Shown piece by piece: positions 1 through 53,366 of a stretch of 64,000 nucleotides of DNA. The notes under the pieces were generated by a model. The model was not told the DNA's origin. It saw nothing but the letters and a program-made list of their open reading frames with translations, and ran no database searches. This DNA is from Kribbella sp. VKM Ac-2569 (lineage in GTDB: Bacteria > Actinomycetota > Actinomycetes > Propionibacteriales > Kribbellaceae), in contig NZ_SGXJ01000003.1 of assembly GCF_004216905.1 (NCBI RefSeq), positions 1,054,001-1,118,000 of the forward strand, read 5' to 3'. The stretch's first letter is position 1. The number at the start of each line of letters is the position of its first letter. The position numbers were made by a program, and so were the translations under genes.

Positions 1-583
1 CCGGGCTGTTGAACTCCGCGTCGAGCGACGGGAGCGCGAGGACGTAGCGCGACGCGATGATGCCCATGTCGGCGTACGCCTGCTTGATCAGTTTCAAAGC
101 CCCGGCAGCCTCTCCAGCCACCTGATCCAGGCGGCAGAAGATGTGGGCGTCGTTGAGTTGCATCGCGCGGACCCGGCTCAGGCCGCCGATCGCTCCGGAG
201 AGTTCGGCGCGGTACTGCCCGCCGAGCTCCGAGTAGCGGAGTGGGAGTTCGCGGTAGCTGTGTGAGCGGGATCGGAACATCAGCGCGTGGTGCGGGCAGA
301 TGCTGGGTCGCAGGACCAGTTGCTCGCCGCCCATATCCATCGGCGGGTACATGTCCTCGTGGTACTTGGCCCAGTGGCCCGAGATCTCGTACAGCTCGCG
401 CTTGCCGAGGACCGGCGAATAGACCTGCTGGTAGCCCGCTCTTCGTTCCACGTCGGCGATGTAGCTCTCCAAAGCGTGCCGAACGGCGGCGCCCGCGGGC
501 AGCCAGTAGGGCAGTCCCGCGCCGATCAGCGGGTCGGAGTCGAACAGGCCGAGTTCGCGGCCGAGCTTGCGGTGGTCGTACAT
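1..583 (-). CDS. thrS: Threonyl-tRNA synthetase paralogue, short form (partial, 3' end outside window)
   Basis: Class II aminoacyl-tRNA synthetase expected to charge tRNA-Thr in the cytoplasm. The 194 visible residues start directly at the catalytic core (MYDHRKLGRELGLF), the point reached only after about 250 residues in the full-length ThrRS at 27222-29243, so the TGS and editing domains are absent. ThrRS hallmarks are present: YSPVLGKRELYEISGHW, the Cys of SMCPHHA (zinc ligand), SYRELPLR and LNDAHIFC. The ATG follows a GGAGG ribosome binding site. It is the last visible gene of an operon with an amino acid ABC transporter, separated from it by a Thr leader peptide and attenuator. It may be a stress or resistance isoform lacking proofreading; family assignment is firm, role is inferred. 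Confidence 0.9.
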   Translation of the reverse strand, partial: MYDHRKLGRELGLFDSDPLIGAGLPYWLPAGAAVRHALESYIADVERRAGYQQVYSPVLGKRELYEISGHWAKYHEDMYPPMDMGGEQLVLRPSICPHHALMFRSRSHSYRELPLRYSELGGQYRAELSGAIGGLSRVRAMQLNDAHIFCRLDQVAGEAAGALKLIKQAYADMGIIASRYVLALPSLDAEFNSP

Positions 584-593
584 GATTCCTCCA

Positions 594-614
594 TGGGTTG
601 AGGCGAGCAACCCA
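594..614 (-). promoter_or_regulatory. Hairpin just upstream of the ThrRS ribosome binding site
   Basis: Perfect 7-bp inverted repeat (TGGGTTG / CAACCCA, 7-nt loop) ending two bases before the GGAGG of the short thrS. It lies between the attenuator hairpin and the start codon. It could modulate ribosome access or act as a competitor fold; no function is demonstrated. Confidence 0.45.
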
Positions 615-626
615 CGGAGCACGACA

Positions 627-654
627 AAGCCCCGGGGCACTCGCCCCGGGGCTT
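627..654 (-). terminator. Attenuator-type terminator between Thr leader peptide and short thrS
   Basis: A perfect 12-bp G+C stem (AAGCCCCGGGGC / GCCCCGGGGCTT) with a 4-nt loop, followed on the minus strand by a short T-containing tract (TTTGTCGT). It sits 17 nt after the leader peptide stop and 43 nt before the thrS start codon. This is the position expected for the terminator of a ribosome-mediated attenuator. An upstream pause hairpin can also be drawn: CAGCGCGC (712-719) pairs with GCGCGCTG (673-680) around the Thr codons. Confidence 0.75.
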
Positions 655-671
655 GGTCAGACAGTCAGGTG

Positions 672-725
672 TCAGCGCGCCAGGACGAGGTCCGGCGTCG
701 TCGTGACTACTGCGCGCTGCAACAT
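672..725 (-). CDS. Threonine leader peptide (17 aa) of the short thrS attenuator
   Basis: Short frame MLQRAVVTTTPDLVLAR-stop, preceded by GGAG four bases before the ATG. Three consecutive ACG threonine codons (696-704) lie inside the loop of a hairpin formed by codons 3-5 and 16-18, and the stop is followed by a strong terminator hairpin and then a threonyl-tRNA synthetase. That arrangement is diagnostic of attenuation sensing Thr-tRNA charging: stalling at Thr codons would open the pause hairpin and favour readthrough into thrS. It starts 12 nt after the ABC ATPase stop, so it can uncouple thrS from the transporter genes within one transcript. The peptide itself is probably unstable and non-functional. 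Confidence 0.8.
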   Translation of the reverse strand: MLQRAVVTTTPDLVLAR

Positions 726-737
726 GTCTCCACGGTA

Positions 738-1502
738 TCAGAGGAAACGGGAAAGGAACGCACGAGTTCGTTCGTGCTGCGGATTGTCGATCACCTGCTC
801 CGGCGTGCCCTGCTCGACGACCTGGCCGGCGTCCATGAAGACGACCCGATCGGCGGCCTCGCGGGCGAAACTGATCTCGTGAGTGACGACGACCATCGTG
901 AGACCGGCACTGGCGAGACGCTTCATCGTGGCGAGCACCTCGCCGACCAGCTCGGGGTCGAGCGCCGAGGTCGGCTCGTCGAACAGCATCAGCTTCGGCC
1001 GCATCGCCAGCGCCCGGGCGATCGCCACGCGTTGCTGCTGACCGCCGGAGAGCTGTCGCGGGTACGCCTTCTCACGGCCGGCCAGTCCGACCTCGGCGAG
1101 CAGGCCGACCGCCCGCTCGGTCGCCTCCCGTCGCCCCTCCCCCAGGACCGCGATCGGCGCCTCGATGATGTTCTCCAGCGCGGTCATGTGCGGGAATAGG
1201 TTGAACTGCTGGAACACCATGCCGATGTCCTTGCGCCGGCGGGCGATCTCGTTCGGCGACAGCTCGTGCAGCCGGCCGTTGCGTACGTCGTACCCGACAT
1301 CGCGGCCGTCGACGGTGATGCGGCCGGCGTCGAGGGACTCGAGCAGGTTGATGCACCGCAGGAAGGTCGACTTGCCGGATCCGGACGGGCCGAGGACGAC
1401 CACGGTCTCGCCCGGCGTCACGTCGAGATCGATCCCGGACAGTACTTCGGTGTGCCCGAAGCTCTTGCGGACGCCACGCGCCTGCAGGACCGCCGTACTC
1501 AT
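738..1502 (-). CDS. Polar amino acid ABC transporter, ATP-binding protein
   Basis: 254-residue cytoplasmic ATPase of the GlnQ/HisP type that powers amino acid uptake. Walker [10 protein letters not shown] is at residues 38-46, Q-loop in [12 protein letters not shown] near 97-108, signature LSGGQ at 151-155, Walker B LMLFDEP at 171-177 and the switch His at 208. The start codon overlaps the permease stop (ATGA), indicating translational coupling. Length is typical for the family and all catalytic motifs are intact. The substrate cannot be read from the sequence; a Thr-responsive leader and a ThrRS follow in the same direction, which makes threonine or an analogue a candidate, by inference only. 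Confidence 0.95.
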
Positions 1503-26655: not shown

Positions 26656-27225
26656 TTACGGCCAGGACTTCGCGAGGAGTGCTCGGGTGTCCGGGAGGAG
26701 TTGGGGCAGGACCTTGGTGTGGGCGATCGCGGGCATGAAGTTGGTGTCGCCGGCCCATCTCGGGACCACGTGCTGGTGCAGGTGGGCGGCGATGCCGGCG
26801 CCGGCGATCTCGCCCTGGTTCATGCCGATGTTGAAGCCGTGCGCCCCCGACACGGTGCGGATCGCCTGCATCGCCTGCCGGGTCAGCGTGGAGACGTCGG
26901 CGACCTCCGCCTCGCTCAGCTCGGTGTAGTCGGCGACGTGCCGGTAGGGCACGACCATCAGGTGACCTGGGTTGTACGGGTACAGATTCAGGACGGCGTA
27001 CGCCGCCTCACCGCGGTGCACGATCAACGCGTCCGCGTCCGGCAGCCCCGGAAGCCGGCAGAACGGGCAGCCCGAACCCGCCTCATCACTGGTGGGTTTG
27101 TTCTCGCCCTCGATGTACGCCATCCGGTGCGGCGTCCACAACCGCATGAACGGATCGGGCACCCCGACCCCGTCCTGACCCACCAGTTCTTCAGGTGTGT
27201 ACGGCGAGTCGGGGGTGTCCGTCAT
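26656..27225 (-). CDS. HIT-domain protein, Ap4A phosphorylase-like
   Basis: 189-residue histidine-triad protein corresponding by position and sequence style to the mycobacterial diadenosine tetraphosphate phosphorylase next to thrS. The triad region reads [10 protein letters not shown], with CPFCRLPG upstream and [19 protein letters not shown] in the core. Likely role: degrade Ap4A, a by-product of aminoacyl-tRNA synthetases, fitting its translational coupling to thrS (ATGA overlap at 27222-27225). Its usual downstream partner pgsA1 is displaced by two opposite-strand genes. Confidence 0.9.
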
Positions 27226-29243
27226 ACCTGAACGCGCTTCTGCACGGACTCGACGATCTCGGCCACGGCGTCGGCGATCGGTACGCCGTTCTTCTGCGTG
27301 CCGTCGCGGTACCGGAACGAGACCGATCCGGCCGCCATGTCGTCGTCGCCGGCGATCAGCATGTACGGCACCTTGGCCTTCTGGGCGTTCCGGATCTTCT
27401 TCTGCATCCGGTCGTCGGACGCGTCGACCTCGACCCGGATCCCCTGTGCCTTCAGCTGCTTGGCGATCTCGAACAGGTAGTCCACGTGCCCGTCGGTGAT
27501 CGGGATGCCGATCACCTGGACCGGGGCCAGCCAGGGCGGGAAGACGCCGGCGTAGTGCTCGGTCAGCACCGCGACGAACCGCTCGATCGAGCCGAACAGC
27601 GCACGGTGGATCATCACCGGCCGCTGCCGGGAGCCGTCCGGCGCGGTGTACTCCAGCTCGAACCGCTCCGGCAGGTTGAAGTCCAGCTGGATCGTCGACA
27701 TCTGCCAGGTCCGGCCGATCGCGTCCCGGGCCTGGACGGAGATCTTCGGGCCGTAGAACGCGGCGCCGCCCGGGTCCGGGACCAGCTCCAGTCCGGAGCC
27801 CTCGGCAACTTCCCGGAGCGTCTCGGTGGCCTCCTCCCAGACCTCGTCGGTGCCGACGAACTTGTCCGGGTTCTTGGTGGAGAGCTCGAGGTAGAAGTCG
27901 TCCAGGCCGTAGTCGGCGAGCAGGCCGAGCACGAACGTCAGCAGGTTGCGCAGCTCGTCGCGCATCTGCTCACGGGTGCAGTAGATGTGCGCGTCGTCCT
28001 GGGTGAAGCCGCGGGCGCGGGTCATGCCGTGCACAACGCCGGACTTCTCCAGCCGGTAGACCGTGCCGAACTCGAACAGCCGCAGCGGCAGCTCCCGGTA
28101 CGACCGGCCGCGGGCCGCGAAGATCAGGTTGTGCATGGGGCAGTTCATCGGCTTCAGGTAGTAGTCCTGGCCCTGCTTGCGGATCTGCCCGTCCGCGCCG
28201 CGCTCCTCGTCCAGGTGCATGGGCGGGTACATGCCGTCGGCGTACCAGTCCAGGTGACCGGAGGTCTCGAACAGCTGGCCCTTGGTGATGTGCGGTGAGT
28301 AGACGAACTCGTAGTCGTCCTCGACGTGCCGCTGGCGGGAGTAGTCCTCCATCACCTTCCGCAGCACGCCGCCCTTCGGGTGGAACACCGCGAGACCCGA
28401 GCCGATCTCGTCCGGGAAGCTGAACAGGTCGAGCTCGGTGCCCAGCTTGCGGTGGTCGCGCTTGGCGGCCTCCTCGAGACGGGTCAGGTACGCCTTCAGC
28501 TCGTCGCGCGACTCCCACGCGGTGCCGTAGATCCGCTGCAGCTGGGGGTTCTTCTCACTCCCCCGCCAGTACGCCGCCGCCGTACGCATCAGCTTGAAGT
28601 TGCCGAGGTACCCCGTCGCCGGGACGTGCGGGCCGCGGCACAGGTCCTTCCAGGCGACGCTGTCGTCGCGCCGGACGTTGTCGTAGATCGTCAGCTCGCC
28701 GCCGCCGACCTCGACCGAAGCGCCCTCGGCCGCGTCGGCCGCGGAGCCCTTGATGCCGATCAGCTCGAGCTTGTACGGCTCGGCCGCGAGCTCGTCGCGC
28801 GCGTCGTCGTCGGTGACCACCCGGCGGCTGAACCGCTGCCGCTCCTTGATGATCTGCTGCATCTTCTTCTCGAGCTTGGTCAGGTCCTCCGGCGTGAACG
28901 GCGTCGGTACGTCGAAGTCGTAGTAGAACCCGTTCTCCACCGGCGGACCGATGCCGAGCTTGGCCTCCGGGAACAGGTCCTGCACCGCCTGCGCGAGGAC
29001 GTGCGCGGTCGAGTGCCGGATGATCGCCCGGCCGTCCTCCGACGCCGCCTTGACCGGCTCGATCTCGTCGCCGTCGGCGACCACCCGGGACAGGTCCCGC
29101 AGCTCACCGTTGACCCGGGCGGCGATGGCGGAGCGGTCCTGGCCGAAGATCCCGGCGAACAGCTCCCCGATCGTCGTCGTCTCGGTCACACTCCGCTCAG
29201 CCTCGCCCTCGACGCCGATCAGGTGGACCTTGACTTCCGACAC
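27222..29243 (-). CDS. thrS: Threonyl-tRNA synthetase, full length
   Basis: 673-residue housekeeping ThrRS that charges tRNA-Thr. Domains in order: TGS (residues ~1-60), editing/second-additional domain with [10 protein letters not shown] and CRGPH, class II core from [12 protein letters not shown] with NCPMH and QDDAHIYC, and the C-terminal anticodon-binding domain ([20 protein letters not shown]). The GTG at 29243 is preferred over one six bases upstream because GAGGA then has a six-base spacing. The downstream HIT gene overlaps by ATGA. No leader peptide comparable to that of the short paralogue at 1-583 was found. Confidence 0.96.
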
Positions 29244-29404
29244 GTGCACTCCTCAGGTCTCGACCAGCCGAATACCGGTCACGCACAGATGGTATCGACA
29301 CACCTGACGAAAGTAGGGGTCGGGACCAGCCGCTCGTCCGATGTGCCGGGGGCGCCTCCATTTCTAGGTTCGAGGTACCACAAGGACCAGGAAAGGGCCC
29401 CGGC

Positions 29405-41318: not shown

Positions 41319-41319
41319 G

Positions 41320-41391
41320 TGGACGATACTGGGATCGAACCAGTGACCTCTTCCGTGTCAGGGAAGCGCGCTACCGCTGCGCCAATCGTCC
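41320..41391 (-). tRNA. tRNA-Val(GAC)
   Basis: 72 nt; anticodon loop CTGACAC in the stem CTTCC/GGAAG; T-loop GGTTCGATCC; acceptor GGACGAT/ATCGTCC with discriminator A; CCA not encoded. Identical to the copy at 47245-47316. Last gene of the minus-strand Gly-Cys-Val cluster. Confidence 0.96.
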
Positions 41392-41415
41392 AAGGGAACC
41401 TTGTTGGGGTCCTCG

Positions 41416-41486
41416 AGGTGGAGACGGGATTCGAACCCGTGTACACGGCTTTGCAGGCCGTTGCCTCGCCTCTCGGCCACTCCACC
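41416..41486 (-). tRNA. tRNA-Cys(GCA)
   Basis: 71 nt; anticodon loop CTGCAAA, T-loop GGTTCGAATCC, acceptor GGTGGAG/CTCCACC with discriminator U, as expected for tRNA-Cys. It differs from the copy at 47171-47241 by a compensated C-G to A-T pair at the bottom of the anticodon stem. Confidence 0.96.
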
Positions 41487-41518
41487 ACTGAGAAAGCTGG
41501 CCTGCCGAACCCTCTCCG

Positions 41519-41591
41519 AGCGGACGACCGGGTTCGAACCGGCGACCTCAACCTTGGCAAGGTTGCGCTCTACCAACTGAGCTACGTCCGC
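41519..41591 (-). tRNA. tRNA-Gly(GCC)
   Basis: 73 nt; anticodon loop TTGCCAA in the stem CAACC/GGTTG, D-loop AGTTGGTAGA, acceptor GCGGACG/CGTCCGC, discriminator U. Identical to 47048-47120. First gene of the minus-strand cluster. Confidence 0.96.
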
Positions 41592-47047: not shown

Positions 47048-47120
47048 GCGGACGTAGCTCAGTTGGTAGAGCGCAACCTTGCCAAGGTTGAGGTCGCCGG
47101 TTCGAACCCGGTCGTCCGCT
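47048..47120 (+). tRNA. tRNA-Gly(GCC)
   Basis: 73 nt, identical to the minus-strand gene at 41519-41591; anticodon loop TTGCCAA; discriminator U. First gene of the plus-strand Gly-Cys-Val cluster. Confidence 0.96.
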
Positions 47121-47170
47121 CGGAGAAGGTTCGGCAGGCCACCGCCCTCAAGTGGCGGAACGGCCTCTCT

Positions 47171-47241
47171 GGTGGAGTGGCCGAGAGGCGAGGCAACGGA
47201 CTGCAAATCCGTGTACACGGGTTCGAATCCCGTCTCCACCT
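47171..47241 (+). tRNA. tRNA-Cys(GCA)
   Basis: 71 nt; anticodon loop CTGCAAA in stem ACGGA/TCCGT; discriminator U. Only 3 nt separate it from the following tRNA-Val. Confidence 0.96.
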
Positions 47242-47244
47242 CGA

Positions 47245-47316
47245 GGACGATTGGCGCAGCGGTAGCGCGCTTCCCTGACACGGAAGAGGTCACTGGTTCG
47301 ATCCCAGTATCGTCCA
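47245..47316 (+). tRNA. tRNA-Val(GAC)
   Basis: 72 nt, identical to 41320-41391. The 24-nt Cys-Val spacer of the other cluster is shortened to 3 nt here, consistent with a deletion between two GGAC words. A hairpin terminator follows. Confidence 0.96.
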
Positions 47317-47321
47317 CGAAC

Positions 47322-53242: not shown

Positions 53243-53257
53243 CTGTGCCTTTCTTTT

Positions 53258-53335
53258 GGGCAGTCGCGACTGGCGCGCTGAAGGTGGAGAACCACCGGGG
53301 AGCGAAACCCGTCGGCACCGTGCGCCTGGGTGCCT
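53258..53335 (+). ncRNA. ZTP (pfl) riboswitch upstream of glyA
   Basis: The conserved blocks of the pfl motif are present in order: GTCGCGACTGGCG (53263-53275), the GGTGG...CCACC stem closing on ACCGGGGAGCG (53292-53304), and GCGCCTGGGTGCC (53322-53334). The class binds the purine precursor ZTP/ZMP, which signals 10-formyl-THF shortage, and typically controls folate one-carbon genes. glyA starts 32 bp downstream. No obvious intrinsic terminator follows, so control is probably at translation. Confidence 0.9.
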
Positions 53336-53366
53336 TCGACCCACTGCAACCGCAGGAGAGACAACG

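Follow-up and report, generated by a model that had tools for sequence, protein, structure and literature searches.

The short threonyl-tRNA synthetase (ThrRS) gene at one end of the window, i.e. the whole stretch of 64,000 nt that was analysed, is preceded on the minus strand by a leader with threonine codons and by alternative hairpins. Sequence comparison confirmed this arrangement before a second, short ThrRS as a real feature. The element is very probably a threonine-codon, ribosome-mediated attenuator of the thrL type. It has a promoter of its own, probably a leaderless one, and would control a spare ThrRS without an editing domain. Its kind is already known; new is a well-conserved member with an extra helix between segments 3 and 5. 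On the minus strand, the features follow one another in this order: the last part of a gene for an ABC transporter ATPase, a -10 box, the leader ORF, a GC hairpin, a hairpin at the Shine-Dalgarno (SD) sequence and the start of the short ThrRS.

Read directly on the minus strand, the leader peptide ORF (672..725) has 17 codons, with the ATG at 725-723 and the stop codon at 674-672, and encodes MLQRAVVTTTPDLVLAR. It contains three consecutive ACG codons (696..704), the putative regulatory Thr codons, and is thus a short frame with a codon run for the amino acid of the downstream gene. The preliminary description of this DNA had pointed out this frame and its codon run. At 110 of 111 readable actinomycete loci, a short ThrRS lacking the editing domain is preceded by a leader with three Thr codons, which places the observation beyond chance. 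Among 110 leaders (L172 and L173 included), the codon following the run is CCG in 108, and the distance from the first ACG to the stop codon is 30 nt in 92, a spacing that fits the footprints of a stalled ribosome versus one at the stop codon. For comparison, ACG accounts for 352 of the 860 Thr codons in the 35 long ORFs of the window. The genome harbours tRNA-Thr genes of the CGU, UGU and GGU types, and given the CGU gene, ACG is read by a dedicated tRNA.

It is highly improbable that the role of leader and hairpins is limited to boosting or buffering the translation of thrS, by re-initiation or as an RNA stability hairpin, with the Thr codons reflecting the peptide or codon bias. Re-initiation at leader genes has been proposed for short distances of 10-11 bp (available text of PMC4833913), whereas 88 nt separate the leader stop codon from the thrS ATG in the window. 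Moreover, all three codons are ACG in 106 of the 110 leaders, while the codons preceding the run vary among the loci.

An extended -10 element, TGA-TACCGT (732..740, minus strand), was identified by sequence and comparison 6 nt before the leader ATG, overlapping the stop codon of the ABC ATPase gene (740-738). A TANNNT box lies 6 or 7 nt upstream of the leader start codon at 110 of 110 loci, a count that is partly due to selection since the box served as a criterion for picking leader starts. Strings resembling an SD at a distance of 5-13 nt upstream of the leader start occurred at none of the 38 same-genus loci and at 1 of 110 loci overall, which speaks against the ribosome binding site initially assigned to the leader. 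Judged from the placement of the -10 box, the leader is most likely leaderless and probably driven by its own putative promoter. The same geometry was described for promoters of S. lividans, with a mean box-to-start distance of 6.3 nt and a box in 93.4% of leaderless genes (available text of PMC8079986).

The gene upstream of the element is variable among the 38 same-genus loci: an ABC ATPase gene was observed in 9, a gene with a thioesterase-type end in 26 (assigned by script in 25 and by eye in L031, with Pfam run on L007 only) and another or unresolved gene in 3. The element therefore travels with thrS and not with the transporter. Attenuation of the ABC transporter transcript was rejected on the same grounds. 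The original placement inside an operon, with the transporter transcript running into thrS, is not supported in view of the 9 of 38 loci and of the -10 box before the leader.

A GAAAWY box (the WblC/WhiB7 motif) was observed 32-34 nt upstream of the leader -10 box in 22 of 63 class loci, e.g. L138, L143 and L157, compared to a shuffled mean of 0.10 loci at that spacing; the numbers are 1 of 9 for same-order loci and 0 of 38 for the window's genus. This box is a possible second control on the spare ThrRS. thrS2 appears among the WblC-activated genes in the available text of PMC7157823, and SCO3778 is named as a threonyl-tRNA synthetase in that of PMC10771440.

The window contains the 5' part of the short ThrRS gene (1..583, minus strand), whose ATG begins at 583 and which encodes 415 aa in the whole genome. 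With Pfam cut-offs, only the class II core (tRNA-synt_2b) and the anticodon-binding domain (HGTP_anticodon) were detected, and the SAD editing domain was not found. A full-length ThrRS with the SAD domain is encoded at 27222-29249, about 27 kb from the short thrS. The same attenuator was considered for this full-length gene and rejected, as inspection by eye revealed no Thr-codon leader upstream.

The short ThrRS (window 1-583; L001:838-2082) features an LND motif, compared to QDD in the full-length enzyme of the same genome. LND is also found in the S. aureus ThrRS 1nyq, its best solved relative. The short enzyme matches its own full-length counterpart at 43% over the first 175 aa, compared to 47-49% over about 400 aa for its best matches beyond actinobacteria, which belong to Geomicrobium, Bacillus, Paenibacillus and a Gemmata MAG. 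The sequence suggests a Firmicutes-like core for the short ThrRS.

The short ThrRS is present in the window's genome and in each of the 37 genomes of the same genus that were searched; among 59 same-order genomes, at least 9 have it. In an even sample of the class, it was detected in 48 of 296 genomes, the own genome included (matches down to E 1.2e-122). The first 66 loci consisted of 38 from the genus, 9 from the order and 19 from named actinobacteria, including Streptomyces, Kitasatospora, Nocardia, Amycolatopsis, Micromonospora and Rhodococcus; 65 of them carry a Thr-Thr-Thr leader. Among 46 further class loci, such a leader was present at 45 of the 45 readable ones; L165 ends at a contig edge, and G363 was left out of the upstream reading, also due to a contig edge. 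Conservation of the Thr codons and hairpins at orthologous loci, a check named along with the initial proposal, was thus found. The single exception, L056 (Streptomyces sp. ms191), has the hairpin, segment D and the SD, and no Thr leader was found upstream of position 2500; it either represents a natural variant lacking the leader or results from an assembly artefact.

A covariance model (R1) yielded matches in 44 of the 296 genomes at E 2e-12 or better; it was trained on alignment A2 (see below) including class genomes, so these strong matches arise partly by construction. By coordinates, 43 of the 44 adjoin a short thrS, and the remaining one, in G312, ends at a contig edge. The window's genome has one strong match, located at thrL; the next match there, with E 0.056, is the antisense strand of this hairpin.

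Besides G312, 18 weaker matches were examined, and L184 was the sole one with a Thr leader. At L184:489-642 (G318:C55), the leader MARVFWSTTTPGISRRLSLAR, a hairpin and a D-like segment precede a ThrRS with the SAD domain; for this class genome, no short-ThrRS match is listed at E 1e-90. Eight weak matches (L183, L185, L186, L229, L232, L234, L235 and L238) stand before a gene for DAHP synthase (Pfam on L186). All belong to family f20, with leaders starting with MQRKFWRFYGYRP or MQRNFWRFYGYRP (L229 and L234 were partly seen), which contain Phe, Trp and Tyr codons and are followed by a GC hairpin, often with a U-run. A Phe-Tyr-Phe leader of aroF is known from C. glutamicum (available text of PMC4046766). 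No Thr leader was found at L187, L188, L230, L231, L233, L236, L237, L239 and L240, two of which are tRNA-like.

The RNA from 740 to 590 folds at -77.2 kcal/mol (z = -4.56), with none of 200 shuffles as low. Direct reading and covariation counts indicate a pause hairpin, in which segment 1 (CAGCGCGC, 712..719) can pair with segment 2 (GCGCGCUG, 673..680), in agreement with the pairing noticed earlier. Segment A (CUCGUCCUGG, 680..689), the predicted antiterminator strand inside the leader ORF, forms 10 pairs with CCGGGGCGAG. Both hairpins previously noticed between leader and short ThrRS were also read on the minus strand. The first is a terminator-like hairpin with a perfect stem of 12 bp and the loop GAGU, predicted by folding with the 5' arm AAGCCCCGGGGC (643..654) and, as segment 4, the 3' arm (627..638). 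The second covers the SD: its arms CUCCGUGGGUUG and CAACCCAUGGAG (619-608 with 600-589; hairpin at 589..619, loop CUCGCCU) include the first four bases of segment 6, the thrS SD GGAGGA (587..592), and the helix covaries in relatives.

Two further strands were defined by covariation. Segment 3 (GGGGCGAGUG, 638..647) consists of the 3' half of the 5' arm plus the loop and has three competing partners. Segment 5, or D (UGCUCGCCUC, 600..609), is complementary to it over 10 pairs, some of them G-U; in the window, folding places D in or beside the loop of the SD hairpin and not in the middle of the stem. The segment consensus is GUCCCGGCGCGCUG for A/2, CCGGGGC plus GAGUG for segment 3, CACUCGYYYY for segment 5/D and CGAGGAGACC for the SD region of segment 6. 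The conserved pairings 1:2, A:3 and 3:4 have strands in common and are therefore mutually exclusive.

Covariation was counted in alignment A2, comprising 51 of 62 representatives after 11 long or divergent sequences had been dropped. Pairings 1:2, 3:4 and 5:6 together had 88.6% paired cells and 35 double-change cells, compared to 12.5 after shuffling (0 of 500), and the 3:5 helix of 10 bp had 91.1% paired cells and 25 double-change cells, compared to 8.1 (0 of 500); these shuffles do not preserve relatedness. The covariation score of 3:5 was 0.277, versus 0.208 for shuffled and at most 0.131 for slid versions, the latter comparison being favourable to the counted structures, which were taken from member L052. 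For A:3, 98.3% of the cells are paired with zero double changes.

An alignment-free swap test was performed with 108 elements and 2000 permutations (L172 and L173 were excluded, as their hairpin is not placeable). It yielded z values of -21.6 for the T arms of the terminator-like hairpin, -11.4 for the end of segment 3 plus loop with D and -10.2 for D:SD. For each of the three, 0 of 2000 permutations were as good, also inside three groups, and the SD is hence masked by a conserved hairpin, as expected for a translational attenuator. The pause pairing 1:2 likewise reached 0 of 2000 overall and was weaker inside groups (68/2000). The signal of A:3 was weak (36/2000 overall, 59/2000 inside groups) and nil within the window's genus (1745/2000 permutations as good), since this pairing is near-invariant. 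The nine same-order loci alone showed no excess for D:SD (796/2000) or 1:2 (1734/2000). In the 108 elements, the control pairings A:D, R1:D and T3:D were not favoured, and T3:D was rejected as an alternative helix with 1998 of 2000 permutations as good.

Sequence and comparison thus support the leader, its codons, the promoter box and the predicted pairings 1:2, A:3, 3:4, 3:5 and 5:6. When charged tRNA-Thr is plentiful, the ribosome would reach the stop codon and cover A, so that hairpin 3:4 could form; transcription would then end where that hairpin terminates, and in any full-length RNA segment 5 would mask the thrS SD. When the tRNA-Thr reading ACG is uncharged, the ribosome would stall on the ACG run and A would stay free. 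That a stall leaves A free and the stop position covers it follows from the geometry. Free A would take segment 3 and hairpin 3:4 would fail; segment 5 could then exchange the SD for segment 3 as its partner, and thrS would be transcribed and translated.

The 3:5 helix suggests control of translation as well, i.e. a switch coupling termination and translation. Tentatively, we regard it as possible that thrL is such a linked switch, in which a ten-base strand (5' arm plus loop of the hairpin) is contested by the leader ORF, the 3' arm and the SD-masking segment. A stalled ribosome would both prevent termination and unmask the SD, and leaky read-through would stay untranslated. Two narrower versions of this explanation have to be weighed, in which the element acts by transcription or by translation alone.

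A purely transcriptional attenuator like that of the E. coli thr operon, with roles for 1:2, A:3 and 3:4 only and with segment 5 arising as a by-product of the SD hairpin, appears rather doubtful to us. A:3 and 3:4 are conserved, as this explanation demands, and some members, e.g. L021 and L023, have a real U-tract. In the window, however, the GC stem is followed by UUU and then GUCGU, which is a poor U-tract, and a terminator scan of the window did not list the 12-bp hairpin. The hairpin is followed by a U-run of at least 4 in 10 of 108 elements (L172 and L173 excluded; 9 of 110 by another count), or 6/38, 1/9 and 3/61 by group. With a GC stem but mostly no such U-run, the element was not filed as a classical transcription-termination attenuator, and the designation as terminator given to the 12-bp hairpin beforehand is uncertain due to the missing U-tract. 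Furthermore, 3:5 covaries beyond permutations and slid controls, unlike a by-product, and the SD hairpin itself is conserved.

A crude co-transcriptional model, run like the other folding models without L172 and L173, bears on the same point. With a barrier of 6.5 kcal/mol (n = 108), the hairpin T was formed in 36 elements with a stalled ribosome, 70 with the ribosome at the stop codon and 66 without a ribosome; for A:3, the numbers were 42, 0 and 4. Barriers were compared for 62 of the 108 elements, chosen as representatives. At 6.5 kcal/mol, T was formed in 22/62 when stalled, 114/186 when stalled with shuffled A and 39/62 at the stop codon, and at 8.0 kcal/mol in 30/62, 133/186 and 51/62, respectively. 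At 5.0 kcal/mol the stall effect was gone (28/62, 93/186 and 25/62). At two of the three barriers, 3:4 is thus lost when the ribosome stalls, in agreement with the geometry described above and also with pure transcription attenuation. The latter is further in line with the observation that 3:5 hardly forms in this model (2/108 stalled, 5/108 at the stop codon, 5/108 without a ribosome).

Missing U-tracts would be explained by a pure translational attenuator, in which 3:4 is non-terminating and the stalled ribosome decides whether segment 5 pairs with segment 3 or the SD. The covarying, mutually exclusive helices 3:5 and 5:6 are in line with this, as is the S. lividans thrL, for which one hairpin but no uridine-rich stretch was described (available text of PMC8079986). 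We nevertheless consider this version unlikely. For such a mechanism, a 12-bp hairpin of this high stability would be an unusual choice, and folding does not connect A:3 with SD release: forcing A:3 at equilibrium in 108 elements did not free the SD, with a mean accessibility of 0.26 compared to 0.25 before, an increase in 45 elements and one of more than 0.2 in a single element. Relative to the best A-state fold, the loop:D pairing costs a median of 3.8 kcal/mol, and T is more favourable than 3:5 by 13.9 kcal/mol. In the crude co-transcriptional model, mean SD freedom was 0.37 stalled, 0.35 at the stop codon and 0.34 without a ribosome. For the window's own RNA, T was formed and the SD masked even with a stalled ribosome; L044 alone behaved as proposed, with 3:5 formed and the SD freer when stalled. 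The 3:5 helix thus covaries, yet the models show no SD release by a stalled ribosome, and since neither equilibrium folding nor the crude co-transcriptional model reproduces this step, the coupled switch is put forward conditionally.

The E. coli thr attenuator precedes biosynthesis genes and has an SD-led leader, a U-tract terminator and Ile codons in addition to Thr codons. It shares with the present element the Thr codons in a leader peptide and the logic of pause, antiterminator and terminator, but lacks an SD-linked fifth segment. In Bacillus subtilis, starvation induces a spare ThrRS by the T-box of thrS/thrZ, an RNA that binds tRNA directly. The regulatory logic is the same, but no T-box was matched here, neither at the gathering score in the window nor among the nine sub-threshold Rfam matches at 560-780. 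Other known Rfam families were rejected as well; the matches to Scr3202 and His_leader stayed far below the respective gathering scores. Elsewhere in the window, a ZMP/ZTP riboswitch was matched at 53256-53338 (plus strand, 54.1 bits), and two Gly-Cys-Val tRNA clusters in opposite orientation about 5.5 kb apart (41319-41591, minus strand; 47048-47317, plus strand) look like an inverted duplication.

Leaderless polycysteine attenuators of cys operons in mycobacteria were reportedly described by Canestrari et al. 2020. They share the leaderless short ORF with a codon run, but differ in the amino acid (cysteine) and the controlled cys operons. The available text of PMC13236596 cites them as translation attenuation. 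Attenuators of leuS and trpS in Streptomyces likewise represent attenuation of actinobacterial aminoacyl-tRNA synthetases, but with Leu or Trp codons (available text of PMC1262725); the same text (Seliverstov et al. 2005) states that no conserved structures were found upstream of threonine operons in actinobacteria.

The closest known case is thrL (SLIV_19412) of S. lividans TK24, listed in 2021 as a prediction before thrS SLIV_19410 (available text of PMC8079986), which we infer to be a short ThrRS. The arrangement had been called unfamiliar in the preliminary description, which does not hold given this listing of a leader before thrS, the transporter being incidental. Like the element in the window, the S. 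lividans thrL stands before a thrS and has one hairpin. According to the same available text, it is leaderless and has two Thr codons, compared to three here, as well as no U-rich stretch; termination is called 'not clear', and alternative pairings are not described there. Its leader MKRVRPFLETTPGFVPAR shares the TTP...VPAR end with VIKRAVVTTTPRFVPAR of the window's genus; many same-genus leaders end in TTP-x-x-VPAR, while the window's own ends in TTPDLVLAR. Searches of the open-licence PMC literature yielded no description of the 3:5 helix, and as far as they reach, the covarying helix is new. The Lyubetsky group is said to have published later attenuation surveys.

Taken together, the element very probably serves actinomycetes as a compact threonine sensor that is widely conserved. 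Natural variants are at hand in members with and without U-tracts, in L056, for which no leader was found, and in L184 on a full-length thrS. For part of the class, two controls on the spare ThrRS are suggested, namely tRNA-Thr charging and a WblC/WhiB7-type box. If the coupled switch is true, a GC-rich bacterium that lacks a U-tract terminator could tighten attenuation by making translation dependent on the antiterminated state.
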